A stretch of 64,000 nt of DNA, from NCBI RefSeq assembly GCF_001887775.1, contig NZ_CP015519.1, positions 1 to 64,000 of the forward strand, given 5' to 3'. The position numbers and the translations under genes were made by a program. Shown here one piece after another: positions 18,761-32,443 of this stretch; position 1 is the stretch's first letter; each line of letters opens with the position of its first letter. This DNA is from Syntrophotalea acetylenivorans. Lineage in GTDB: Bacteria; Desulfobacterota; Desulfuromonadia; Desulfuromonadales; Syntrophotaleaceae. The notes under the pieces are model-generated. The model was not told the origin of the DNA. It did no database searches and worked only from the letters and a program-made list of their open reading frames with translations.

Positions 18761-19550
18761 ACTAAACGGAATCAACACGTTTTTCAACGACTCCCGCTTT
18801 GCAGCAATTTCAGTGGAAGAATAGCCATTTGGCCGCTTAAAATCACAATATATATCGATATAGTCTCTATTAATTGCCAAAATGGATAATTCATTTTGAT
18901 AATATGGATAGCGATATGCTTTACCAATTAGGCACAAATTCAGTTGCTGCTTTTTGTGTAATGGATCCGCAAGCGTCTCAGAATTACCCTCTATGGAATG
19001 CGAAATGCCCACGGTTGCCCCAAATATCATGTCAAAAGGGATTGTCACATATTCATAGGGATTTTACAGGTAACCGAACCGTCCGAGAAATCACAATTAC
19101 CAAGCCCCCCTGTGTTAGGACATGATAGACACGACAACTATCTTGACTCCCACCGGGTAGAGCCTTTCATTAAGGTTGATTACCAGACAACCAATTCTGG
19201 AAAGGATAAGAATACCGGCACTTCCATTCCCAGGCAGTCAGAACTTGCTGTGGGGATTGGTAACCACTTCACGTTAACCGACAGACTGACTCTTGCGCTG
19301 TCGTATGGAAAAGGCGTTTCGGGAAGAAATACGACTAAACAAATGCCCAATAAGGCCCGATTTGTCAGGGTTTTCTAACGTTTGTTTAGGCAGCGTAACG
19401 TTGAGTCCGGGCGGGAGTCTGCTATCGTTAGGCTGTCGTTCTTGAACGTTTTGGAAGAGAAGTTAACTGTTTTTTAACTCAACAAAAAGGTACTTGGGTC
19501 GGAGGGTAGTCCTGTTGATCCGCTAAGCCCTAAGCACTAGGAGGTACAAA
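18761..19550. other. 790-base region with scattered remnants upstream of acetylene hydratase
   Basis: An open stretch ending at 19378 contains VEPFIKVDYQTTNSGKDKN and NHFTLTDRLTLALSYGKGV, a pattern like the last strands of an outer-membrane barrel, but I cannot name it. The 170 bases before ahy should contain its promoter: GTTAACTGTTTTTTAACTCA (from 19461) is a notable inverted repeat. AGGAGGT (19539-19545) is the ahy ribosome site. Confidence 0.45.
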
Positions 19551-21749
19551 ATGGCTAGCAAGAAGCACGTTGCCTGTCAGTCCTGCGATATTAATTGTGT
19601 TGTAGAGGCTGTAGTGAAGGATGACGGTAAGATCCAAACAAAGAGTATCTCAGAGCCTCACCCGACAACTCCCCCCAATAGTATTTGTATGAAGTCGGTG
19701 AATGCGGACACGATCAGGACTCATAAGGATCGTGTGCTCTATCCTCTGAAAAACGTGGGTAGTAAGAGGGGAGAGCAAAGGTGGGAGCGAATCAGTTGGG
19801 ACCAGGCATTGGATGAAATTGCCGAAAAGTTGAAAAAGATTATAGCGAAATACGGTCCGGAGTCCCTTGGTGTAAGCCAGACTGAGATTAATCAGCAAAG
19901 CGAATGTGGAACGCTCCGGAGATTCATGAATCTCTTGGGTAGCCCGAACTGGACTGCCGCCATGTATATGTGTATCGGGAATACAGCCGGAGTTCATAGA
20001 GTAACTCATGGAAGTTACTCTTTTGCGAGTTTTGCCGACTCTAATTGCCTTTTGTTCATTGGTAAAAATCTCAGTAATCATAATTGGGTCTCCCAGTTCA
20101 ATGACCTTAAGGCTGCTTTAAAAAGAGGCTGCAAGCTTATTGTGCTTGATCCGCGCAGAACCAAGGTCGCAGAGATGGCGGATATTTGGCTTCCTCTTCG
20201 CTATGGGACAGATGCAGCTCTATTTCTCGGGATGATTAACGTTATCATCAATGAACAGTTGTACGACAAAGAGTTTGTTGAAAACTGGTGTGTTGGGTTT
20301 GAAGAGCTTAAAGAACGGGTTCAGGAATATCCTTTAGACAAAGTTGCGGAAATAACCGGATGCGATGCCGAAGAAATCAGGAAAGCTGCTGTTATGTTCG
20401 CAACCGAGGGGCCTGCATCCATACCTTGGGCTGTTTCAACTGACATGCAGAAAAACAGTACGTCGGCGATCCGCGCTCAATGCATTTTAAGGGCAATTAC
20501 TGGCAGCCTTAAGCAAGGGGCGGAGTTGTTGGGGCTCCCCCATTCAGAGTTCGTGTCTGTTTCCCAGATTCAGATGCACGAAGCACTGCCTGAAGAAAAG
20601 AAAAAGATTCAGCTCGGTACAGAACGGTACCCGCTCCTTACATACACGGGGATGAGTGCGTTTGAAGAGCCGTCAGCAAGAGTCTATGGGGAAGAAAATA
20701 GGTACTTCCACAATATGGCCGCGTTTATGGCCAATCCGACGGATATGTTTACGGCTATGGCTTCCGAGAAACCGTATCCTGTGAAGGCCTTCTTTACATT
20801 TGCCAGCAATGCGCTGATGGGCTTTGCAAATCAGGAAAACGCACTCGCTGGTCTCATGAATCAGGAATTGGTTGTTTGTTACGATCAGTTCATCAACCCT
20901 ACAGCGCAGCTTGCCGATTATATTCTCCCCGGTGATCACTGGCTGGAGAGGCCTGTTGTTACGCCGAATTGGGAAGGTATTCCTTTCGCCAATACTTCCC
21001 AGCAAGTTGTCGAACCGGCTGGCGAAGCCAAAGATGAATATTATGTCGTCAGAGAGCTGGCCATCAGGATGGGACTTGAAGAGCATTTCCCGTGGAAGGA
21101 CCGGGCTGAATTGATGAACTACAGGATCAGCCCGACTGGTAAGGATTGGGAAGAGTTCCAGAAGCAATTCACCTATCCGTCTAATATTCCCGATTATTTT
21201 GCCCCGGGTGGGGTAGGCGTGGCGACCCCATCAGGAAAAGTTGAGCTGTATTCAAGTGTGCTTGAAGGACTTGGGTATGATCCGTTGCCGTACTACAAGG
21301 AGCCGGAGCAGACTCCAATCAGTGACCCGGAACTTGCGAAGGAATATCCCTTAACCCTTTTTGCTGGTCTGCGTGAAGATCCGGGCTTTAACTCCTGCTA
21401 TATGCAGGAAGGGCCCCTTAGAAACGTAGAGCCCGATCCTGTTGCCTTGCTTCATCCAAAAACTGCGCAGTCCCTTGGACTTCCCTCCGGCGAATGGATC
21501 TGGGTTGAGACAACTCATGGGAGGTTGAAGTTGCTCCTCAAGCATGATGGTGCGCAGCCGGAAGGTACGATAAGAATACCCCATGGACGGTGGTGCCCTG
21601 AACAGGAAGGTGGTCCTGAGACTGGATTTAGTGGAGCCATGCTGCATAATGATGCCATGGTATTAAGTGATGATGACTGGAATCTCGATCCGGAGCAGGG
21701 TTTGCCAAATCTTAGAGGCGGTATTCTTGCGAAGGCATATAAATGCTGA
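19551..21749 (+). CDS. ahy: acetylene hydratase (tungsten, bis-MGD, [4Fe-4S])
   Basis: Hydrates acetylene to acetaldehyde without net redox change. The 732-aa product opens with the cluster motif of DMSO-reductase-family enzymes (Cys9, Cys12, Cys16, Cys46). It carries Asp13, the key acid of acetylene hydratase, Lys48 between cluster and pterin, Cys141 as tungsten ligand next to Ile142, and Ile14, Ile113, Trp179 and Trp293 of the ring that admits acetylene. The known Pelobacter enzyme is 730 aa; from memory the sequences are nearly the same, with a 2-residue insertion near residue 375 (YGEENRYFH). No signal peptide, so cytoplasmic. A strong site AGGAGGT stands 5 bases before the ATG. The second copy is at 1-1492. 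Acetaldehyde dehydrogenase lies 3.5 kb upstream. Confidence 0.97.
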   Translation: MASKKHVACQSCDINCVVEAVVKDDGKIQTKSISEPHPTTPPNSICMKSVNADTIRTHKDRVLYPLKNVGSKRGEQRWERISWDQALDEIAEKLKKIIAKYGPESLGVSQTEINQQSECGTLRRFMNLLGSPNWTAAMYMCIGNTAGVHRVTHGSYSFASFADSNCLLFIGKNLSNHNWVSQFNDLKAALKRGCKLIVLDPRRTKVAEMADIWLPLRYGTDAALFLGMINVIINEQLYDKEFVENWCVGFEELKERVQEYPLDKVAEITGCDAEEIRKAAVMFATEGPASIPWAVSTDMQKNSTSAIRAQCILRAITGSLKQGAELLGLPHSEFVSVSQIQMHEALPEEKKKIQLGTERYPLLTYTGMSAFEEPSARVYGEENRYFHNMAAFMANPTDMFTAMASEKPYPVKAFFTFASNALMGFANQENALAGLMNQELVVCYDQFINPTAQLADYILPGDHWLERPVVTPNWEGIPFANTSQQVVEPAGEAKDEYYVVRELAIRMGLEEHFPWKDRAELMNYRISPTGKDWEEFQKQFTYPSNIPDYFAPGGVGVATPSGKVELYSSVLEGLGYDPLPYYKEPEQTPISDPELAKEYPLTLFAGLREDPGFNSCYMQEGPLRNVEPDPVALLHPKTAQSLGLPSGEWIWVETTHGRLKLLLKHDGAQPEGTIRIPHGRWCPEQEGGPETGFSGAMLHNDAMVLSDDDWNLDPEQGLPNLRGGILAKAYKC

Positions 21750-22064
21750 AAAAGGCTTGTGGATAGGTAGGTGGGGTATTGCAGCAGGCTGCCAGTCGAT
21801 CGATTTTACGTGCCGAGCGTTTGATGAGTGAGGCGGATTGTGCAGATTTTCTGCCGGAGGTAGACCGCCGGCTTGCAGGATTGGTTCTCATTCTTTGAGT
21901 TACAGGATGTTCTGGTAAATCGGATTTCTTGGAAACCACCCCACTTCGGTGGCCATGCCTTCTCCTTCAGAAAGGATACTTTGTGTTTGGGGGAGGCATG
22001 GTCACTACCCTTACTTTGTTGAGGCAGATGAGTGATCACCCTATTGGCAAAATTAGTGCTTACG

Positions 22065-22108
22065 TGTCAGGTCCCGCATGATTCCTGACCTGTTTATGGA
22101 AAAGTTCC
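22065..22108. mobile_element. fossil end of an IS481-family element (right repeat copy)
   Basis: TGTCAGGTCCCGCATGATTC and the following CTGACCTGTTTATGGAAAAG equal the reverse complement of the right end of the intact IS481-family element (34730-34773). The insertion scar therefore predates the duplication of the ahy-mobA region. Confidence 0.75.
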
Positions 22109-22196
22109 ATTTTCTTTTTTTGCCAATCTTTTCGACAGTAAACAACGCATAGATTTCTAACGTCCCGTAGGGTTTCATGTTTGGGAGGATGCTGCG

Positions 22197-22328
22197 ATAA
22201 AAGGGAATTCGTCATTAATAACCGGCATTATCCTCGTTGGCGGATAGAACCGTCGTATGGGAACCGATAGGGCATTCCTAAAAATCGAAGGCATTTCCCT
22301 TTTTAAACGGGTCCTCCAAGTTATGGAG
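22197..22328 (+). pseudogene. dead 5' fragment of mobA
   Basis: Corresponds to codons 1-44 of mobA at 1935. The start codon is ATA instead of ATG, a TAG stop replaces the Lys codon within the signature LVGGKSRR, and several further substitutions are present. The fragment is cut by the IS3-family end at 22329. Confidence 0.88.
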
Positions 22329-22371
22329 TGACCTGCCCCACCTGATAGGTCTACTTCGAATGTTAGTGTAG

Positions 22372-23240
22372 CGCAACCCTGTCGGTTTCCAATGCCGCTG
22401 CTTGAATAGGCAGCGGCATTATTGTTTCGGGTACTGGTGGACGGTAGCCGAGCGAACTGTGTGGACGGATTGTGTTGTAATGTCATCGCCACTGTTCAAT
22501 CAGAATCTTGTCCTCCTTGAGGGTATAGAAAATCTCCCCATTGAGCAACTCATCCCTCAGTTTACCGTTGAAGGATTCATTGTAACCGTTCTCCCAAGGG
22601 CTGCCTGGCTCAATGAATAACGTCTTGGCCCCGAGACGCTCCAACCAGCCCCTGACCAGCTTTGCCGTAAATTCTGCGCCATTATCAGGCCGGATGTAGC
22701 CAGGCGTCCCTTGATGCAGAAACAGGTCAGACACTGTCTCCACCACATCGTTCGAGTTAAGTTTTGATCAACCCGCATGGCCAGGTACTCCCGGCTGTAT
22801 TCGTCAATCACGGTCAGCATCCGGAAGACTTTGCCATCGTGCGTTCGATCCTGGACAAAGTCATAGGCCCAGACATGATTTCGATATTCGGGTCGCTTGC
22901 GAATACAGGACCCGTCATTGAGCCAGAGTCGGCCTCGTTTTGGTTGTTTCTGTGGGACCTTTAGTCCCTCCCGTCGCCAGATCCGTTCTACCCGCTTGTG
23001 GTTGACCGTCTATCCGCCATGTTGAATGAGGGCGGTAATACGCCGATAGCCATAGCTGCCATATTGACTGGCCAATTCAATAATGGCTGCTGTCAGCGAG
23101 CCTTCGTCTTCTCGTGGCTGGGGTGGTCGTCTCTGTACGGATCGGTTGTTGGCCTAAGACGCGACATGCCCGCCGCTCCGAGATACGTAATCTTTCCTGA
23201 ACGGCATTCACGCAGGCCCGGCGACGCTCAGGACTTAGAA
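22372..23240 (-). pseudogene. IS3-family transposase OrfB, broken
   Basis: On the minus strand the pieces read VWAYDFVQDRTHDGKVFRML, TVIDEYSREYLAMRVD, a frameshift near 22757, then GYIRPDNGAEFTAKLVRGWL and PGSPWENGYNESFNGKLRDE with the catalytic Asp and Glu. After KILIEQWR a TGA interrupts before HYNTIRPHSSLGYRPP. At least one frameshift and one nonsense change make it inactive. Confidence 0.82.
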
Positions 23241-23432
23241 GTTTCCCTTGGCTGCTTCCTGCAGTATCAAAGTGCTCATCCCGCCATACTCTTTGCGCCA
23301 GCGGTAATAAGGCACTTCACTCACTCCGATTGCTTTGATTGCTTGAGCCACGGTCTGACCTTGACCGATCAAAATGTCTTCTTCACGCAGTTTGGAAATG
23401 ATCTCTTTGGGACGGTAACGTTTCTTCGCCAT
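23235..23432 (-). CDS. IS3-family transposase OrfA
   Basis: 65 aa from the ATG at 23432 (RBS GGAGGAAG). MAKKRYRPKEIISKLREEDI and GQTVAQAIKAIGVSEVPYYR are the helix-turn-helix of IS407-type OrfA, ending WRKEYGGMSTLILQEAA. It appears to be shortened and has no functional OrfB partner. Confidence 0.75.
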   Translation of the reverse strand: MAKKRYRPKEIISKLREEDILIGQGQTVAQAIKAIGVSEVPYYRWRKEYGGMSTLILQEAAKGNF

Positions 23433-23460
23433 GTTCTTCCTCCTTGTCAAATCCGGTCTT

Positions 23461-23620
23461 GGGACTTAACACAAAAATGGACCGATTTGCTGGGAGAAGG
23501 TAACAAGTGCTGAGGTGGATCAATTTGGGTCGATGATTGCCCTCGAAGGTGGGGAGGTTTTGGATGGCAATTAACAAATAAGGTCAAAAAGGGACATTTT
23601 TGCATGCCGATTGAAAAAAT
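23461..23620. mobile_element. possible remnant of a second IS end
   Basis: In reverse the sequence contains TGTCCCTTTTTGACCTTATT and CCAAAACCTCCCCACCTTCG, a style I associate with ends of IS21-type elements. No transposase sequence is left. Weak evidence. Confidence 0.3.
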
Positions 23621-23623
23621 AGG

Positions 23624-23666
23624 TTGACTCGGGAAAGCAGGGCCTGATAGTGTGTTGGTCAACCAG
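23624..23666 (+). promoter_or_regulatory. TetR-type promoter before the twin ncRNA candidates
   Basis: TTGACT (23624-23629), 18 bases, TAGTGT (23648-23653), then GTTGGTCAACCAGC. Promoter core TTGACTCGG and the GTTGG..AACCA palindrome match the tetR promoter at 12334-12381, 11 kb away. This suggests that the RNA at 23680 is repressed by the same regulator. Confidence 0.6.
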
Positions 23667-23679
23667 CCAAATTTGTTTT

Positions 23680-23889
23680 AAGTTTGTTGTTTGCGAAGGT
23701 ATTTGGTTCTGTATTGAATAGTTTGTAAACCAAGTAGTTGCAGTGCAGCAAGAACCGTTTTGTTCGACCTAGATATAGCTTTTAGAATTATCAAGTAGTT
23801 GAGTAGCCTCCGCACATGAAAAGCTAGTCTTTACCTCCTTGGAATCCCAAGTGGGGGGGACCTCCTCTCTCCCCACTTGGATCTTTTTT
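23680..23889 (+). ncRNA. candidate small RNA, copy A, ending in an intrinsic terminator
   Basis: About 210 bases without a plausible ORF, closely related to 24015-24243. Shared blocks: GTATTGAATAGTTTGT, AAG(T/A)AGTTGC(A/G)GTG, CCTAGATAT, AGTTGAGTA, AAAAGCTAGTCT and the terminal hairpin. The 3' end is a textbook intrinsic terminator: CCAAGTGGGG (23847-23856) pairs with CCCCACTTGG (23871-23880), followed by T6. A TetR-type promoter stands directly upstream. No family I know matches. Confidence 0.6.
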
Positions 23890-24014
23890 GACTAGCGGTT
23901 AAGGCTTTAGAAAGTTTGTTTTAACTTTTTCTAGAGGTGTGCAGGTCGAGTCATGAGCTTTCAAGTTACATGGTTGTTCATAGCGAAGGCAAAATGCTCT
24001 AACAGTAAATTGTT

Positions 24015-24243
24015 GAGTTTGTTTTTTGTAGGAATATTGAATCATGTATTGAATAGTTTGTTGGTCAAGAAGTTGCGGTGTAGATAGAAACTTTTTTGTT
24101 TTCCCTAGATATGGCATTTACAACTGCTCAAATAGTTGAGTAACCCCCACACACGTAAAAGCTAGTCTAGTTTTATCCTACCTATGTAATTCCAAGTGGG
24201 GGGGGGTTACTCCTCCCTTTCCTCTCCTACTTGGAGATATTTT
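24015..24243 (+). ncRNA. candidate small RNA, copy B, ending in an intrinsic terminator
   Basis: Tandem relative of copy A with the same order of conserved blocks. The terminator stem CCAAGTGGGG.../...CTCCTACTTGG (24192-24234) differs from copy A in both arms yet still pairs, using G-U pairs, and ends in ATATTTT. That pattern is what selection on structure would give. A clear promoter of its own is not visible; it could be read through from copy A or start near 24010. Confidence 0.55.
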
Positions 24244-24457
24244 GCATCCAAACATTGGACTTTCCAGAGAGTTTTTAGCAAGGACTTGGCCTTCAAATTC
24301 ACAGGTACTGCAAATGTCGTTCTCTGATCTCGTGTCTTACATAATTAATAATAACGCTAGTCACTTTCTTGTGCCGCTGTCAGAAAAATTTGACGTAAAC
24401 ATCTGGAACGCCGCCATGAACGAAGCCTTCAGGCAAATGGGGCTCGTTAATAAATGA
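24242..24457 (+). CDS. possible small hypothetical protein
   Basis: 71-codon frame; a shorter start at ATG 24314 gives MSFSDLVSYIINNNASHFLV, then NIWNAAMNEAFRQMGLVNK. It begins in the T-run of the copy B terminator and lacks a good ribosome site, so it may be a remnant. I recognise no family. Confidence 0.25.
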   Translation: MHPNIGLSREFLARTWPSNSQVLQMSFSDLVSYIINNNASHFLVPLSEKFDVNIWNAAMNEAFRQMGLVNK

Positions 24458-24519
24458 AGCGCGGTATAGCTGTTTGATTTTTGCGGTGATTGTGACGTTC
24501 TGATAATTACATTTTTTTG

Positions 24520-24745
24520 TTAGCCGTCACGGGGCTTCGGGCCGGGCCGAGAGCCTGTGACGCAGGTGGCTGTTTTGCAGGTGACAGCCTGGCTTAAGCC
24601 CGGAACCGCACTAGCGGTTTCCGGGCTTAAGTCGTTTCAGGGGGCAAAGCCTGTGGTTGGCGTCATGGTCAGCGAGTCATCCGGCAAGCGAGTTTGTAAG
24701 CAGCAATGGGGCTGAGTTGTTACCTTTTTGCTTGGTATAGAGGTT
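24520..24745 (+). promoter_or_regulatory. hairpin-rich leader before the sensory hydrogenase operon
   Basis: Three consecutive inverted repeats: GTCACGGGGCT...AGCCTGTGAC, TGGCTGT...ACAGCC, and a 17-base-pair hairpin CTTAAGCCCGGAACCGC / GCGGTTTCCGGGCTTAAG with one bulged base (24593-24631). No T-run follows the last. The structure sits 120 bases before the first gene and has the density of a structured RNA leader or riboswitch. I could not match it to the Moco, c-di-GMP-I or cobalamin consensus. Confidence 0.5.
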
Positions 24746-24749
24746 AAAT

Positions 24750-24995
24750 ATGGAACATCGTATCAAGATTTGCATGGGCAGTTCCTGCTATAGCCGCGGC
24801 AATCAGGAGAACCTGGAGCGCATCGAACGCTACCTGAACTATCGTCAGGTCAACTGCGCCATCGACCTGCGCGGCAGCCGTTGTGAAGGACGCTGTTTTG
24901 AAGGGCCGAACATCGAGATTAACGGCCGATTGTTCGGTGGAGTCAAAGCCGAGACCATCGAGCAGTTGCTCGACCAGCAACTGGGCTTGTATTGA
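24750..24995 (+). CDS. thioredoxin-like [2Fe-2S] ferredoxin (NuoE/HydC type)
   Basis: 81 aa, IKICMGSSCYSRGNQENLER... with Cys9 and Cys14 at the N-terminus and Cys45 and Cys49 in LRGSRCEGRCFEGPNIEING. This is the four-cysteine pattern of the thioredoxin-like [2Fe-2S] domain in NuoE and in hydrogenase small subunits. It is reduced to the cluster domain only. It lies 12 bases before the H-cluster gene and is likely its electron-transfer partner. Confidence 0.85.
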   Translation: MEHRIKICMGSSCYSRGNQENLERIERYLNYRQVNCAIDLRGSRCEGRCFEGPNIEINGRLFGGVKAETIEQLLDQQLGLY

Positions 24996-25007
24996 CGGGA
25001 GTGTGTC

Positions 25008-26762
25008 ATGGGGTATTACCAATGTTCACCGATTTTTACGGCGGAAAATGAGTGCCAGGATTGTTCGAAATGCGTTCGGCATTGCCCGGTCAAAGCAATC
25101 AAGGTAGCTGACGGCCAAGCCAGAATCGTGCCTGAGAAATGTGTGGCCTGCGGAACTTGTGTTCGGGTGTGTCCTGCTGGAGCCAAGCGGGTGCGTGATG
25201 ACCTGACGGATGTCAAGCAGCTACTGCAGCAATCGAAGAAGGTTTTTGCCTCCCTCGCTCCTTCTTATGTCAGCGAGTTTCCAGGTATACCCACGGCGAA
25301 CATAATTGCCGCCCTTCGGCGACTGGGGTTTGCCGGGGTCAGCGAAACCGCTTTGGGAGCCCAGGAAGTTTCTGCCAAGGTGGTCAGGGAGCTTAATGAG
25401 GGCCGGCAAAAATTGATTCTGTCCTCCGCCTGCCCGGCGGCGGTTACCTACGTTCAAAAATATCTGCCGGAATTTGCCCATTCGATCGCTTCTGTTTTTT
25501 CCCCCCTGCTGGCCCACTGTACCATGCTCCAACAGCATTACGGTTCTGATGTCGCGGTCGTGTTCATCGGACCCTGCGGGGCCAAGAAAAACGAAGGGGA
25601 CCGTCATCCGGAATTGATGGATGCGGTCATCACCTTTACTGACCTTAGGGCTTGGTTGGGCGAAACCCGTATCAACCCGGCTGCCCTGGTGATAGGGGAG
25701 GAGGATCGTTTTGTGCCTGAAAGTGCTCAAGAAGGCGCTTTGTACCCGATTGAAGGCGGTATGATTGACACCTTGCGCATGCAGGGTGGTAGCGATCGGG
25801 TCCATTACGGCACTGTGGGTGGCCTTCGCGGCATCGAGCACGTACTGGGTGATTTGCGGCCGGAGAATGTGACTCTGCCGACCTTCCTCGAATTGCTGGC
25901 TTGTCGCGGCGGTTGCATCAACGGTCCCTGTGCCACTCCAGGACAGGCCGGACTGAAGCAATGGCAGGAAGTGATCTCTCGGGCCAATATCCCGGCCGAG
26001 CCTGTTCTTCGCCAGCCCTTATCCAATATCGATGAGAATATTTGTGATCTGCCACTGCCGGCTCGGAGCTATGGTGAACAGGAAATCCGTCAGGCTCTAC
26101 GTCGCGTCGGCAAAGAAAGTCGCGACGACGAACTGAATTGCGGCGGCTGTGGTTATGAAACCTGCGGGGAATTCGCCAAAGCTATTCTGTCGGGCCATGC
26201 CGAATCATCAATGTGTCTATCCTTTTTGCGGGAACAGGCGCAGAAAAAGGCCAATGCTTTGTTGCACTGCATCCCCTCCGCCATCGTGCTGGCCGACAAT
26301 GAGCTGAAAATTCTCGATTGCAACTGTAGCTTTGCAACCTTGTTCGATGAGTCGTTGCTTGAAGTTTATGAAGTCTGTCCGGGGCTAGCCGGTGCTTCGC
26401 TGCGGAGAATACTGCCTTTTGGCGAACTGTTCGAAGAGGTGCTGAAAAGCGGAGAGTCTCTGCGCCGCGAATCGCTGCATGTGGACAATCGTATTTTCGA
26501 CCTGACCATCTTTCCGATCGATCCGGGTCTGGTAGTCGGCGGGGTCATCACCGACGTCACCGATTCGGAACTTCCACGGGAACTGATAGCCCAGCGAGCA
26601 CAGGAGGTCATTCACAAGAACCTCAAGACCGTACAGGAGGTTGCTTGCCTGTTAGGCGAAAACATGGCGGAAACGGAAATCCTGTTACGTTCGTTGGTGG
26701 AAGGGTTCGCTCCGGAAGATGCCACCGCACACAAATTGGTTCCGTCAGTCGAAGAAAAATAA
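25008..26762 (+). CDS. putative sensory [FeFe] hydrogenase with PAS domain (group C/HydS type)
   Basis: 584 aa. Two [4Fe-4S] ferredoxin motifs (Cys16-19-22-26, Cys45-48-51-55) precede an H-cluster domain: L1 SSACP (Cys142), L2 GPCGAKKNE (Cys190), L3 LLACRGGCINGPC (Cys299, Cys303). In catalytic enzymes L1 is TSCCP; here the proton-relay cysteine is Ala141, as in sensory members. A further cluster motif LNCGGCGYETCGEF..C follows at about 377-405, then a PAS-like domain (about 410-520). The preceding [2Fe-2S] gene and following phosphatase gene form the operon expected for redox or hydrogen sensing. The start ATG at 25008 is preceded by GGGAGTGTGTC. Confidence 0.88.
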   Translation: MGYYQCSPIFTAENECQDCSKCVRHCPVKAIKVADGQARIVPEKCVACGTCVRVCPAGAKRVRDDLTDVKQLLQQSKKVFASLAPSYVSEFPGIPTANIIAALRRLGFAGVSETALGAQEVSAKVVRELNEGRQKLILSSACPAAVTYVQKYLPEFAHSIASVFSPLLAHCTMLQQHYGSDVAVVFIGPCGAKKNEGDRHPELMDAVITFTDLRAWLGETRINPAALVIGEEDRFVPESAQEGALYPIEGGMIDTLRMQGGSDRVHYGTVGGLRGIEHVLGDLRPENVTLPTFLELLACRGGCINGPCATPGQAGLKQWQEVISRANIPAEPVLRQPLSNIDENICDLPLPARSYGEQEIRQALRRVGKESRDDELNCGGCGYETCGEFAKAILSGHAESSMCLSFLREQAQKKANALLHCIPSAIVLADNELKILDCNCSFATLFDESLLEVYEVCPGLAGASLRRILPFGELFEEVLKSGESLRRESLHVDNRIFDLTIFPIDPGLVVGGVITDVTDSELPRELIAQRAQEVIHKNLKTVQEVACLLGENMAETEILLRSLVEGFAPEDATAHKLVPSVEEK

Positions 26763-26789
26763 GGAGTAAAGTGAAGGGGGCTACTGAAG

Positions 26790-27965
26790 ATGGCACAGGA
26801 CCTGTTTGTCGAGATTGAATTCAGTCAATGCAACTACCACGGCGAGGATGTCTGCGGCGACTCTTTTCTGATGCAGAAGGTCGAAGACCAGAACCGCAGG
26901 ATCGCCGTGCTCTCCGACGGATTGGGACACGGGGTCAAGGCCGGAATCCTGTCGACCATGACCTCCTCCATGGCCCTGAAATTCATCGCCAGCGACCTGG
27001 AAATCGGCCGCTCGGCGGAAATCATGATGGATGCCCTGCCGGTTTGCCAGAGGCGCAAGATCAGCTATGCGACCTTCTCCATTTTTGATTACCGGGAAAG
27101 TGGCAGCGCACGGATCATTGAGATGGACAACCCGCCATTTTTGCACATCCGCGAAGATGAAGTATTGAGTACGGACTACAAAGAAGTCTGTTCACCCCGG
27201 CACCAGAAACGCAAGCTGCGTATTTCCCACATTGAACCTCGTTCCCAGGACCGTCTGGTTTTCATATCGGATGGCATTACCCAGGCCGGCCTCGGTTCAC
27301 AGCAGTACAAGCTCGGCTGGCGACTGTCCGGCTGCGCCGATTTTGTACTCGATATGCTGCGCGACGATCCGGCCATTTCCGCTCGCGACCTCTCGCAAGA
27401 GATCCTCGAAGCGGCCCTGCAGAAAGAACCCGGCCAGCAGGCCGGGGACGACATCACGGTGGGGGTGGTCTATTTCCGGGTGCCGCGGCGGACAATTTTG
27501 CTTACCGGCCCGCCGTTTTCCCAGGAGCGCGATGTCGTTTATGCCAATTACCTTGATTCATTTGCCGGGCGCAAGGTGATTTGCGGAGGCACTTCGGCCG
27601 ATATTGTGGCTCGCGAATTGGGTCGGGAGATTCATACGGATCTGGGTAGCCATGGCTGCGGCATCCCGCCAGTATCGCACATGGAGGGGGTTGATTTGAT
27701 TACGGAGGGGATTTTGACCTTGACCCGGGTAGCGCAATTTTTGGAGCAGGGGGACATCCCTCAAGAAGGCCACGGCGCCGCCCGGCTGGCCCAGATGTTG
27801 CGCGACAGCGATGCCATTTCGTTTCTGGTCGGAACCAAGATCAATGAAGCGCATCAGGATCCGAGTCACCCGGCGGAACTGGAGATCCGGCGTAACATCG
27901 TCAAGCGCGTGGCCAAGGTGTTGCAGGAGAAATATCTCAAAGAAATATCACTACAGTATATTTGA
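26790..27965 (+). CDS. SpoIIE-type PP2C serine phosphatase, output of the sensory hydrogenase
   Basis: 391 aa. Residues 1-225 are a PP2C/SpoIIE phosphatase: EDVCGDSFLM and VLSDGLGHGVKAGIL supply the metal-binding aspartates, later FISDGITQAG and GDDITVGVVYFR. A C-terminal region (about 230-391) begins RTILLTGPPFSQERDVVYAN and is conserved-looking but unnamed. It follows the PAS-hydrogenase gene after 27 bases. Known sensory hydrogenase operons often carry such a phosphatase, so it probably converts the H2 or redox state into dephosphorylation of a partner protein; none is visible nearby. Confidence 0.85.
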   Translation: MAQDLFVEIEFSQCNYHGEDVCGDSFLMQKVEDQNRRIAVLSDGLGHGVKAGILSTMTSSMALKFIASDLEIGRSAEIMMDALPVCQRRKISYATFSIFDYRESGSARIIEMDNPPFLHIREDEVLSTDYKEVCSPRHQKRKLRISHIEPRSQDRLVFISDGITQAGLGSQQYKLGWRLSGCADFVLDMLRDDPAISARDLSQEILEAALQKEPGQQAGDDITVGVVYFRVPRRTILLTGPPFSQERDVVYANYLDSFAGRKVICGGTSADIVARELGREIHTDLGSHGCGIPPVSHMEGVDLITEGILTLTRVAQFLEQGDIPQEGHGAARLAQMLRDSDAISFLVGTKINEAHQDPSHPAELEIRRNIVKRVAKVLQEKYLKEISLQYI

Positions 27966-28021
27966 GGGGCTCTGCAAGGAATTTGCTTGGTTGAGTCTAC
28001 AATCATACTCGATCTGAGGCG

Positions 28022-28468
28022 TTGCCCGAGCGTTTACCTGATGTCGGCTACCAGCAGTCGGAGTACTTTGGTCTGGTAACTAACAGGTCGGAACAACACG
28101 CTACCTTCGTTGCTTGGCACGGTCCCTTCAGCCTCTCCGATGCACTGATCACCCGCTGGTGGCAAGCGGTGCGCTTGGGCTCAGTGGTATCGCGCATCGA
28201 TCTGCCGGTTACCGAGCGAGTCTACGGGGATGATCATCACGCCTGGTGCCTCTGGTATGCCAAGGGGACCTGCGGCGCCTGCGCCAATCGCTGCCCGGCC
28301 GACGCCATCACGACAAGAGGGGGACACGACAAGCAGGATTGTTGCAGCTACATCCTGGAGACAACCGCGCCTTACGCCACAAAAACCTACGGCACCGGCG
28401 CTACACCCTGCGGTCTGTGCCAGATCAAGGTTCCTTGCGAGGTCCAGGTGCCACAAGAATTGATCTGA
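28022..28468 (+). pseudogene. 4Fe-4S protein fragment (QueG-like C-terminal part)
   Basis: 148 codons from a TTG with no ribosome site. The C-terminal half has two cluster motifs, CGACANRCPADAI and CGLCQIKVPCEV, spaced as in epoxyqueuosine reductase-like or related 4Fe-4S proteins, with AWCLWYAKGTC before. The N-terminal half is much shorter than any such enzyme. I take it as the remaining 3' end of a larger gene. Confidence 0.6.
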
Positions 28469-28518
28469 ACATGTTACACCAGACTCTGGTGCAATCATTC
28501 ATAATAAGTGGAGAAATC

Positions 28519-29706
28519 ATGCAGGTTCCGTTAAGCGAATTGCAGCAGCGGCTGAACTGTTTCCGAAGCCAGATGGATAGCACCGAGCCCGACTGGCAGG
28601 CAGCGGTCATTTTCGGCAAGGTTAATCAGTATTATTTCACCGGCACCATGCAGGACGGCCTGTTATGGATTCCGCGCGGCGACGAGGCAATCTACTGGGT
28701 ACGCAAGAGTATCGAACGGGCCAGGGATGAATCGCTGTTTCCCCGCATCGAGCCCATGAACAGCTTTCGTGATGTCGCTGCGACAGTCGGAAATATGCCC
28801 GCCCGCCTGCACCTTGAGTGCGAGCTGGTGCCTCTGGCTATGCTGCGCCGCTTCCAGAAATACATTCCCGTTAGCGATATCCGGTCCATTGATGGGGCCA
28901 TGGCAGCCGTACGGGCGGTCAAAAGCGACTACGAGCTGAACCTTATGGAGCGTTCCGGGGAGATACATCGCCGCATTCTTGAGGAGCGGGTGCCGGCCAT
29001 GCTCAGGGAGGGCATGAGTGAAGCGGAGTTTGCAGCAGCGCTCTATCCGGTGATGGTCGAAGAGGGCCATCACGGTGTGGCTCGGTTCGGTATGTTCCAG
29101 ACCGAAATGGCCCTGGGCAATATTTGTTTTGGCGAAAGTTCGATCTATCCCAACTACTTCGACGGCCCGGGTGGCAGTTACGGTCTACACCCGGCGGTGC
29201 CGCTGCTTGGCAGTCGCACCCACAAACTGGGCAAAGGCGATTTGGTTTTTGTCGATATTTGCTGCGGTGTGGACGGTTATCATACCGACAAGACCCAAAC
29301 CTACATGTTTGGCGGGCCGATTGCCGACGAGGCGATTGCCGCTCACCGCGAATGTGTGGCGATTCAGAACCGGATCACCGAACAGCTTCGACCCGGGGCC
29401 ATCCCCTCGGCGATCTATAAGCAGGTCATGGACAGCCTGAGCGACGAGTTCCTTCAGAATTTCATGGGATATGGCGCCCGCCCGGCCCGTTTTCTCGGCC
29501 ACGGCATCGGTCTGCAAATAGACGAGACTCCGGTCATCGCCAAGGGATTCGATGAGCCGTTGCAGGAAGGGATGGTGCTTGCTCTGGAACCTAAAAAGGG
29601 CATCGAAGGGATAGGTATGGTCGGTGTCGAAAATACTTTCATTGTTACTGCTGAAGGGGGGCGCTGTATCACAGGCACACATCCCGGATTGCTGAAAGTA
29701 TATTGA
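28519..29706 (+). CDS. M24 family peptidase (Xaa-Pro aminopeptidase-like)
   Basis: 395 aa from ATG 28519 (GTGGAGAAATC upstream). A creatinase-like N-terminal domain (about 1-140) precedes the pita-bread M24 fold. Metal ligands are visible: FVDICCGVDGYHTDKTQTY (two Asp), LGHGIGL (His), LALEPKKGI (Glu) and GVENTFIVT (Glu). It cleaves N-terminal residues before proline or a related substrate in the cytoplasm. It is not obviously linked to its neighbours. A G6 tract (29656-29661) is in frame. Confidence 0.88.
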   Translation: MQVPLSELQQRLNCFRSQMDSTEPDWQAAVIFGKVNQYYFTGTMQDGLLWIPRGDEAIYWVRKSIERARDESLFPRIEPMNSFRDVAATVGNMPARLHLECELVPLAMLRRFQKYIPVSDIRSIDGAMAAVRAVKSDYELNLMERSGEIHRRILEERVPAMLREGMSEAEFAAALYPVMVEEGHHGVARFGMFQTEMALGNICFGESSIYPNYFDGPGGSYGLHPAVPLLGSRTHKLGKGDLVFVDICCGVDGYHTDKTQTYMFGGPIADEAIAAHRECVAIQNRITEQLRPGAIPSAIYKQVMDSLSDEFLQNFMGYGARPARFLGHGIGLQIDETPVIAKGFDEPLQEGMVLALEPKKGIEGIGMVGVENTFIVTAEGGRCITGTHPGLLKVY

Positions 29707-30125
29707 CCCTCTAGCCAAGCTTTACGTGACGCTTGCGAGGAACCATAAGGCCGAAGGCTTTAACGTTAGGTGGAAACGATTGTTGGCAAACAAAGAAGGC
29801 CTTCCTTTTTGTTCAGAAGTAAGGGGGACAATTATTTTAAGAATACGAAAAGCCTCACTTTAAGCTTTCTTTCTTCTTCTGATAGGGCAATTAAATTTAG
29901 AAACTTTAGAATAGATTGATGATAGCGATGCTAGTATCAATGATTAAATAGATAAATCTGCTAGGGCTATACTAGAGGCGTGCGCAACCATTACAACATT
30001 ATTTTACAAATATTTTAAATATGGTTGGAGCTTGATGAGATAATTCAATCTCAGGCTGAGAAGGCATGCGCCCACCTTATTAATATCAAAATAGATAATG
30101 ATACCTTTTCCGGAGACAGTATCTA
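29707..30125. other. 419-base AT-rich intergenic region
   Basis: No ORF, tRNA or terminator is evident. The segment GGCGTGCGCAACCATTACAA ... GGTTGG ... GGCATGCGCCC around 29978-30073 has weak inverted similarity. Base composition is lower in GC than the flanking genes. Confidence 0.4.
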
Positions 30126-30740
30126 ATGTGTATTTCACATGGTCAGAACAGTACATTGGTGAATATTGAGCAGCGTCGCAGTATTCGTTCTTTTACGGAT
30201 AAACTTGTTCCCGACGAGCATCTGATGACCATTTTGCGTGCAGCCAATCAGGCGCCTTCGGCTCACAATCAGCAGTCCTGGAAATTTATCGTTATTCGCG
30301 GTAAGCGCAAAAACGAACTTGTCGGCCTGGTAGGCGCCAAAGCTGGAGAGTTTCCAAGAGCGGCAGCAGTTTTGTTGCGCATGGCAGCCAGAAGCATCAA
30401 TTCAGCACCAGTGGTTATTGTCGTGGCCAATACCGGAAAATTGATTGGACATGGCACCGAACTGTTCCAGGTCGAAAAGGATCAGGCGCTGGATTTTTTC
30501 AAAACAATGGAGATACAAAGTTCGGCGGCGGCGATCCAAAATCTGCTGGTTGCGGCCGCCTCCCTTGGTTTGGCGACGGTATGGCTTGGGATTTTGTTTC
30601 TAATAAAAGATGAGGTGCTACGTCTTATGGGGGAGCAGGAAGGAGAGTTCATGGCGGTAGTCCCCTTGGGGTATGCGGCCAAGGATGTCAAGGAACCAAA
30701 AAAAATCAATTTTGACATGATGGTGAAGTGGTTGGAATAA
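30126..30740 (+). CDS. nitroreductase family protein
   Basis: 204 aa, FMN-binding fold: EQRRSIRSFTDKLVPDEHL at the start (phosphate-binding Arg residues), RAANQAPSAHNQQSWKFIV near residue 40, then SSAAAIQNLLVAAASLGLAT and VPLGYAAKD at the end. It reduces nitro compounds or other small electron acceptors using NAD(P)H. The physiological substrate is not predictable. GGAGA lies about 10 bases upstream of the ATG. Confidence 0.88.
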   Translation: MCISHGQNSTLVNIEQRRSIRSFTDKLVPDEHLMTILRAANQAPSAHNQQSWKFIVIRGKRKNELVGLVGAKAGEFPRAAAVLLRMAARSINSAPVVIVVANTGKLIGHGTELFQVEKDQALDFFKTMEIQSSAAAIQNLLVAAASLGLATVWLGILFLIKDEVLRLMGEQEGEFMAVVPLGYAAKDVKEPKKINFDMMVKWLE

Positions 30741-31043
30741 CGTGTAGTTAAACTACGTGAAATACTAATGGTCAGATTCAATTTGCATGTGCCCCACCCA
30801 TGACTTGACCAAGCCGGAAATGAAAGTGCTGAAAATATCGCCCAAGGGAAAACCCACTATAGAGGATTTTCGGTAATTTAGAGATAAACAACCACATGGA
30901 AGAGGTGGTGGCCAGAGAAGAGAGGATTATCTAGCCCGAATCAGGAAAGAAACCAGCTCACCGCTCAACATCATCTATTTCCGGGAAGATTTGTACGGCG
31001 CTGCCGGTAACAAATCTTCCTTGCTTTTTCAGGAGAAAATATA
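30741..31043. terminator. intergenic region with an intrinsic terminator (30984-31030)
   Basis: GGAAGATTTGT (30984-30994) pairs with ACAAATCTTCC (31010-31020), followed by TTGCTTTTTC. It ends only 14 bases before the thioesterase start, so it either ends an upstream transcript or acts as an attenuator in the thioesterase leader. A short frame before it (MKVLKISPKGKPTIEDF-like, about 30818-30880) looks like the end of a lost gene. Confidence 0.6.
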
Positions 31044-32096
31044 ATGCTCAGTCCATTGCAAACATCTTTCACCAAGGTTCTTTCCCTTACCAGCGATGAG
31101 GCTTTGAAGCGGCGCTTCATGGTTTTGGATGTACCGATTCAGGCCAACATGCGCTTCGGCCTGCTGCTGGAGGTTCTCGACAAGGTGGCGGAAGAGGCCG
31201 CACTCAACTACGTCAACCAATTTTTCCCGGATGCTCGAGTAGTCACGGCGGCTATCGACAATATCATTATCCGTCATGTCACCGACATGTCACGGGACGT
31301 GCACTTCAAGGCGCGTATCAACCACGTCGGCCGCTCCTCCCTGGAAATCGGCATTCGTGTCGAGCAACCCGGCGTCCCGGTGCGTCATATTGCTTCCTGT
31401 TACTTCACCATGGTCGCTCGTTCGGGAATGGGCGAAGGAGCGGTGAGCGTTGCCCTGCCCGGCCTGGACTATGGTGAGGATATCGAGCAACAGCGGGCCG
31501 ACAAGGCTCTACAACGGCGCAAGGAATACAAGCAGCAGCAGGCGCGTCTGAACGAGCCGCCCAGTCGTGAGGAATTCCAGATGCTCACCGACCTGCATGC
31601 GGCCCAGGATGACCCTGGTTTCAAAGGTCTGCTAGCGGGAAAATTGACCGCCGACGCCTGGGAACGCATGTACCCGGAACAGGAAAACGTGCCGAAAAAG
31701 ATTTTCGGTGGATACCTGATCCGTCGCGCCTACGAACTGTCGTCCATCTGCTCCGAGCAGATAGCCCCCAATCGCCCTATTGCCGCGGCGGTCAACCGCA
31801 TCAACTTTTTTCACCCGGTACGCATGGGCGACACCCTGCACTACACCACCCGTGTGGTCTATACCAAAGGCAGCTTTATCTGTGTCGAAGCGAACATCGA
31901 GCGCATCAGTCGAGACAAGACCACCAAGGCTCTGTCAAACTCCTGTCTGTTCACCTTTGTCAATGTCGATGATGACCTGCAGCAACAACCGGTACCCCAG
32001 GTCTATCCCACCAACTACGGCGAAGATGCCCGCTACCTTATGGCCCATCGCAGCAGCCAGACCCTAATCGCGGAGGGGGCAAACGATCTGAGCTGA
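31044..32096 (+). CDS. double-hotdog acyl-CoA thioesterase
   Basis: 350 aa with two hotdog repeats. The first (about 25-160) includes ANMRFGLLLEVLDKVAEEAA; the second (about 215-330) includes KIFGGYLIRRAYELSSICSE and VNRINFFHPVRMGDTLHYTT. A charged linker (ADKALQRRKEYKQQQARLNE) connects them. This matches cytosolic ACOT-type enzymes that hydrolyse acyl-CoA. RBS AGGAG is 8 bases upstream. The substrate chain length is not predictable. Confidence 0.87.
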   Translation: MLSPLQTSFTKVLSLTSDEALKRRFMVLDVPIQANMRFGLLLEVLDKVAEEAALNYVNQFFPDARVVTAAIDNIIIRHVTDMSRDVHFKARINHVGRSSLEIGIRVEQPGVPVRHIASCYFTMVARSGMGEGAVSVALPGLDYGEDIEQQRADKALQRRKEYKQQQARLNEPPSREEFQMLTDLHAAQDDPGFKGLLAGKLTADAWERMYPEQENVPKKIFGGYLIRRAYELSSICSEQIAPNRPIAAAVNRINFFHPVRMGDTLHYTTRVVYTKGSFICVEANIERISRDKTTKALSNSCLFTFVNVDDDLQQQPVPQVYPTNYGEDARYLMAHRSSQTLIAEGANDLS

Positions 32097-32331
32097 TTGG
32101 CAGGAATTTTGGTCTATTGTCTTGGCTTTGGTTCGAAAGAAGAGGGTATGGTTTTGTGCCGAATCTGTGCCATGTTGGAACAAACTTTGGCGTTAAATGA
32201 CTATTAACGACAAAACACCACAAAAACGTCACCTAACTATAAGCGAGACAAGGTGTTGAAATTACTTGTTGAAATGTTTTTTGGATTGTTGTCTTTTATT
32301 GTGGTTTGTGGGGAGTGAAAAGGCGCGGGTA

Positions 32332-32389
32332 GGACTTAAAATCCCTCGGGAGCAATCCTGTACGAGTTCGATTCTCGTCCCGGGTACCA
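32332..32389 (+). tRNA. 3' part of a tRNA-Leu(UAA) gene (truncated)
   Basis: GGACTTAAAATCC is the anticodon stem-loop of tRNA-Leu with anticodon UAA. It is followed by a variable arm, the T arm ACGAGTTCGATTCTCGT and acceptor end CCCGGGTACCA. The 5' acceptor strand and D arm are absent (upstream is GTGAAAAGGCGCGGGTA). Such 3' tRNA fragments with CCA commonly mark the far end of an integrated element. A terminator follows immediately. Confidence 0.75.
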
Positions 32390-32396
32390 TAATAAA

Positions 32397-32443
32397 AACA
32401 AAGGGTTATGCTCTATTCAATGAGCGTAGCCCTTTGTTTTTTT
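32397..32443 (+). terminator. intrinsic terminator after the tRNA-Leu fragment
   Basis: AACAAAGGGTTATGCTC pairs with GAGCGTAGCCCTTTGTT (two G-U pairs), followed by T5. Typical tRNA-gene terminator, retained with the fragment. Confidence 0.8.

Follow-up and report, generated by a model that had tools for sequence, protein, structure and literature searches.

The 64,000-nucleotide stretch of Syntrophotalea acetylenivorans DNA analysed here (the window) contains a 13.25-kb block (19158-32408) that is 98.3% identical to a region in a genome of a different genus (G010:C1:1030981-1044217). Within it lie a putative acetylene hydratase gene (19551-21749), an IS3 remnant, two tandem RNA units (copies A and B) and a sensor-like operon. 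The product of 19551-21749 is a molybdopterin oxidoreductase by profile, and the specific name acetylene hydratase comes from the context given by the first-pass annotation and from the literature on these strains. Given its near-identity in another genus, the block is a recently transferred acetylene-hydratase island, and both RNAs therefore moved with it. G010, a member of the same family, carries copies A and B with four differences over the A-to-B region, and model R1 of the RNA found no further copy there. At positions 1-2066, the window also holds a second acetylene-hydratase-like gene, about 91% identical to the acetylene hydratase part of G010.

Copies A (about 23678-23889) and B (24013-24243) are direct-repeat units of roughly 210-230 nt, offset by 335-345 nt, with the same block order and 71-90% identity per block (Table 1). 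A BLASTN search of the genome with copy A returned copy B at 76% identity (E=2.9e-25), so their likeness is not due to chance. These comparisons bear out the first-pass annotation, which had described units of about 210 bases with ordered shared blocks, the same CCAAGTGGGGGGG hairpin at both 3' ends and no ORF conserved between the copies; the last holds for either strand.

Table 1. Features of RNA copies A and B, in window positions.
Feature	Position	Strand	Remarks
RNA copy A	23659..23889	+	5' end inferred from promoter, 3' end is terminator T-run; model R1 133.7 bits
Copy A candidate promoter, TTGACT, 16 nt, GATAGT	23624..23651	+	consensus match alone
Copy A stem P1, 5' strand, AGATATAGCTTTT	23771..23783	+	predicted
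Copy A inner hairpin P2, TCAA-GTAG-TTGA	23791..23802	+	weak in copy A
Copy A C-rich site 1, GCCTCCGCACA	23806..23816	+	within P1 loop
Copy A stem P1, 3' strand, AAAAGCTAGTCT	23819..23830	+	predicted
Copy A site 2, anti-Shine-Dalgarno-like linker, ACCTCCTTGG	23833..23842	+	mean unpaired probability 0.74
Copy A intrinsic terminator	23847..23889	+	loop bears CCTCC (site 3)
RNA copy B, conserved body	24013..24243	+	model R1 145.4 bits; transcript start estimated near 24010
Copy B weak candidate promoter, TTGTTC, 18 nt, TCTAAC	23974..24003	+	read from sequence, under scan threshold
Copy B stem P1, 5' strand, CTAGATATGGCATTT	24105..24119	+	predicted
Copy B inner hairpin P2, TGCTCAA-ATAG-TTGAGTA	24125..24142	+	7 bp
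Copy B C-rich site 1, ACCCCCACACAC	24143..24154	+	unpaired in model, CCCCC 0.92
Copy B stem P1, 3' strand, AAAAGCTAGTCTAG	24157..24170	+	predicted
Copy B intrinsic terminator	24192..24243	+	loop bears CTCCTCCC

The promoters of both copies are weak matches. Matches such as the TTGACT-16-GATAGT before copy A are no more frequent than in shuffles; its position agrees with the -35/-10 placement relative to the RNA at a third copy, L003. A TetR-type promoter had been proposed before copy A. What stands there (23622-23664) is just an 8-bp inverted repeat, GGTTGACT/GGTCAACC, which overlaps the promoter match; its arms are complementary over 7 bp and have 27 nt between them. This repeat occurs once in the window and was not seen upstream of the other RNA copies; the mark of a TetR-regulated promoter, a compact palindrome serving as operator throughout a regulon, was not found, which leaves that proposal unsupported. 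At the 3' end, the terminator tail of copy A is T6 (23884-23889) and that of copy B the weaker ATATTTT. The copy B terminator had been thought to have changed in both arms with pairing kept. Its 3' arm reads CCTACTTGG rather than the CCCACTTGG of copy A, so the changes are one-sided, from G-C to G-U, and are accompanied by a longer G-run.

Two further copies lie in the same genome, L003 at ~1.388 Mb (1388047-1388199, + strand) and L004 at ~1.400 Mb (1400386-1400538, - strand). Elsewhere, G004 has a single copy (79%) and G012 a distant relative that scores 46.5 bits (E=3.8e-7); in G002 a fragment with the terminator end is present at the edge of a contig (L015). Among 277 genomes of the class, model R1 matches are confined to five genomes of one family, and no confident relative was found outside it; the weakest of these matches, in G011 (L036), and one at L039 were judged to be probably terminator-only or chance. 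When 84,980 genomes were scanned for the pattern, only UBA6812 and CSMAG_2380 came up, apparently the genomes G012 and G004, and searches of plasmid and viral collections for the RNA returned nothing. In agreement with the earlier statement that the units match no known family, an Rfam 15 search of the window gave 0 matches above the gathering cut-off, and at E<=10 the region 23500-24760 yielded unrelated weak matches only. Copies A and B do not match the 6S RNA model (RF00013), and a divergent 6S RNA was rejected because the genome carries two separate 6S RNAs. The two 6S genes (1249372-1249554 and 942636-942816; L090, L091) both score over the Rfam cut-off. In the literature searched, regulatory RNAs of Desulfuromonadales or acetylene fermenters are scarcely covered.

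L003 and L004 are old paralogues, and their identity, computed in 60-bp bins, is 90-98% from the -35/-10 boxes (TTGTC(A/G)-17 nt-TATTAT) through the terminator. It is 40-63% just upstream of the RNA block, 66% after the terminator, and 67-87% in the neighbouring ferredoxin-like coding gene, below that of the RNA. Because the conserved block starts at the -35 box and stops at the terminator, the pattern marks an RNA gene under selection from promoter to terminator; gene conversion could raise L003/L004 identity too, but would not naturally end at those points. Together with the G012 copy, these boundaries indicate, at the level of sequence evidence, an independent transcription unit closed by an intrinsic terminator. 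This supports the earlier description of the units as two copies of a small RNA that is structured, does not code for protein and has a terminator in each copy; it has homologues elsewhere and is conserved as an RNA gene. We conclude that the RNAs form a real, conserved and narrowly distributed sRNA family that is uncatalogued.

In the shared fold, a 13-pair stem (P1), formed by CUAGRU-A-NAGCUUUU with AAAAGCUNGUCUAG and with the A bulged, encloses a 7-bp inner hairpin (P2) and single-stranded CCCCCACACA. The inner hairpin reads UGCUCAA/UUGAGUA in copy B and L014 and CUUUCUU/AAGAAAG in L003 and L004, so that the clades differ at 5/7 pairs. Such a hairpin seldom arises in shuffles of four copies (p 0.0003-0.011; 0.10 for copy A). 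Two-sided changes also occur at one stem pair and at one terminator pair (L014). The compensatory changes suggested earlier are thus missing from the copy B terminator and present elsewhere in the family. Sliding of the partner strands abolishes pairing; the count of pairs changed on both sides was equalled by 63/500 shuffles and, coming from few, related sequences, lends modest support. MFE z-scores of the copies range from -1.8 to -5.5. In the predicted folds the C-rich sites are mostly unpaired across all six copies, with the exception of site 1 of copy A, for which the model gives only about half exposure (0.44). Most copies have more of these sites than their shuffles do, an excess clearest in B, L003 and L004. 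A conserved unpaired seed is present in most copies, though B and L014 have a degenerate site 2.

Several described sRNAs expose similar motifs. The sRNA NfeR1/alpha-r14 (cuckoo) of Rhizobiales folds into multiple hairpins and leaves several anti-Shine-Dalgarno motifs of the CCUCC type unpaired (PMC10746234). The present RNA likewise has unpaired CCUCC-type sites; unlike alpha-r14, with its three hairpins bearing identical unpaired CCUCCUCCC, it forms one long A-bulged stem with a C-run, and the 9-nt motif is not in each loop. The 6C/B11 sRNA of Actinobacteria has exposed C-runs able to bind G-tracts in 5' UTRs (PMC10470900). It comes from a different phylum and has two C-rich hairpin loops, whereas the exposed C-run of the present RNA, which has no Rfam match, is ~5 nt long and lies outside a hairpin loop, 3' of the small hairpin inside the large stem loop; the two stem-loops of 6C RNA (RF01066), each with at least 6 loop C, are not seen. 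Staphylococcus aureus RNAIII and its UCCC-motif sRNAs bind ribosome-binding sites through an unpaired C-rich motif (PMC2837412). The present RNA shares such a motif, and homology to RNAIII was not detected. RNAIII is longer than the present RNA and encodes a peptide. PmaR of Agrobacterium has a 'spoon' shape, in which a long stem holds a single-stranded loop with C-rich regions (PMC6234868). That architecture recurs here, and homology to PmaR was not detected; PmaR acts on its targets mostly as an activator and is not of the anti-Shine-Dalgarno kind.

We favour, at a probability of roughly 0.6, a new narrow family of C-rich, anti-Shine-Dalgarno-type sRNAs that would base-pair in trans and be encoded by free-standing genes. 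A trans-acting role in occluding ribosome-binding sites is suggested by the free-standing unit, the exposed C-rich and CCUCC sites, the sibling copies and the precedents of NfeR1, B11/6C and RNAIII. The sequences show homology, selection, the L003/L004 boundaries, shared structure, lack of a conserved ORF and independence from the downstream operon; transcription, pairing and targets are inferred. Each unit would be transcribed from its own promoter into a ~210-230 nt RNA ending at its intrinsic terminator. The long A-bulged stem would present the short hairpin and single-stranded C-rich CCCCCACACA, followed 3' of the stem by a CCUCC linker and then by the terminator loop, again with CCUCC. 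Most likely these exposed sites would pair in trans with G-rich ribosome-binding sites, and such pairing would block mRNA translation. Copies A and B would be sibling sRNAs that arose by local duplication and diverged at site 1 (CCUCCGCACA vs CCCCCACACA), which may give them overlapping yet distinct target sets.

Across the window's 53 crude gene starts, the best pairing of copy A is with the SpoIIE gene (26790; 10 bp, p about 0.005 before correction for ~50 genes, which fails multiple testing) and that of copy B with the hydrogenase-like gene (25008). The paralogues and G004 show no pairing with their own SpoIIE genes, and in a conservation check of both pairings relatives did not pair with their own versions. 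Because the pairing is not conserved in relatives, these neighbours are not claimed as targets; failing both conservation and multiple testing, they were dropped and serve as a hypothesis only. It is a long shot that copies A and B are a dedicated riboregulator travelling with the 13-kb island, the seeds of the two siblings having diverged so as to shut off the hydrogenase-like redox sensor and the SpoIIE phosphatase that partners it.

A thioredoxin-like [2Fe-2S] ferredoxin gene stands downstream of the RNA at four loci (the window, L003, L004 and G004), in most cases with hydrogenase-like/FeS and SpoIIE genes after it. Such a shared operon 3' of the RNA would be expected if the copies were tandem cis-acting attenuators or riboswitch-like leaders, with CCCCCAC and the G-rich terminator 5' arm forming an antiterminator except where termination is promoted by a ligand or protein. 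CCCCCAC can pair with this arm, in copy B as a 17-nt inverted repeat, and folding the RNA up to the 5' arm alone gives the alternative structure in B, L003, L004 and L014. However, C-runs pair with G-runs generally, the antiterminator pairing is weak in G012, and ~500 nt separate the copy B terminator from the gene. In G012 the RNA comes after a DUF4125 gene, and the next gene, radical-SAM-like (called from its CxxxCxxC motif, not by profile search), is convergent to it, with no same-strand gene nearby downstream; the RNA is therefore not a 5' leader of a controlled gene in every member. G004 has a second copy of the operon that lacks the RNA, as do operons in other genera. The hydrogenase-like gene is frameshifted at L003 (1.389 Mb; L003 2075-3019 and onward), possibly through a sequencing error in a G-run, and is a short stub at L004 (1.400 Mb; 752-1250), yet at both loci the RNA is intact and the best-conserved part. 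Given G012 and the retention of the RNA at two damaged operons, a cis-attenuator is unlikely; we leave it some weight since the C-run is able to pair with the terminator 5' arm.

The DUF4125 gene found in G012 also lies upstream at L004, and a remnant of it at L003, so the DUF4125-RNA order appears ancestral; the RNA was not found in the DUF4125 neighbourhoods of five other family genomes. Since these relatives, in the same genome and in G012, occupy loci without an acetylene gene, membership in an acetylene regulon, as the first-pass annotation had it, is unsupported. What stands of that claim is the duplicated sRNA gene and its physical linkage to acetylene hydratase, common to a second genus.

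A second, GC-rich structured element lies 5' of the thioredoxin-like ferredoxin gene (window 24522-24640; L003 1640-1746; L004 1312-1430, - strand; L014 2022-2138; L051 3570-3690, - strand). It has three hairpins, the last being TTAAGCCCGGAACC...GGTTCCGGGCTTAA, is present at every same-genus operon copy examined, with three occurrences only in the genome, and found no credible counterpart in Rfam, also at E<=10. This element may be what truly serves the ferredoxin operon as a leader. Between copy B and this element, a short conserved frame ending in ...HFLVPLSEKFDVNIWNAAMNEAFRQMGLVNK (window 24242-24457; L014 1740-1960; also in G004) has no Pfam match and is either a remnant or a small protein.

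A long stem with a C-rich loop that is conserved and exposed, together with the multiple gene copies, would also suit a protein-titrating or structural RNA whose loop binds a protein (e.g. of cold-shock or KH type) instead of mRNAs, a reading we consider improbable. A CsrA-like RNA or CsrA sponge was rejected because GGA-type motifs are absent from the loops, as read from the sequence. It is very improbable that the units are functionless, decaying remnants of a mobile element or pseudogene duplicated along with the operon. An IS3-type transposase remnant does lie just upstream (22483-23450) and the RNA moves together with duplicated operon blocks, but decay would not explain the sharp conservation edges, an RNA identity exceeding that of neighbouring coding sequence, or folds retained in the copies, and the units have neither protein homology nor a conserved ORF.

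Coding potential of the units was rejected. An opposite-strand ORF of L003/L004 after AAGGAGGTG is absent from A and B, and a TTG-started peptide-like frame that A and L014 both keep was rejected on visual inspection, its changes being mostly non-synonymous. A type I toxin-antitoxin or small-peptide gene pair, which tandem short units with a terminator on each might suggest, is largely refuted and has hardly any probability left, as that opposite-strand ORF is not kept and a six-frame comparison of A, B, L003, L004, L014 and G012 found no common peptide.

With four paralogues of the proposed trans-acting sRNA in a single genome, of which two are carried by the recently transferred island, the family makes a small testable system. 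If the RNA controls island genes, it would bear on the regulation of acetylene fermentation, and, were the dedicated island riboregulator true, a horizontally acquired metabolism would bring its own RNA-level control.
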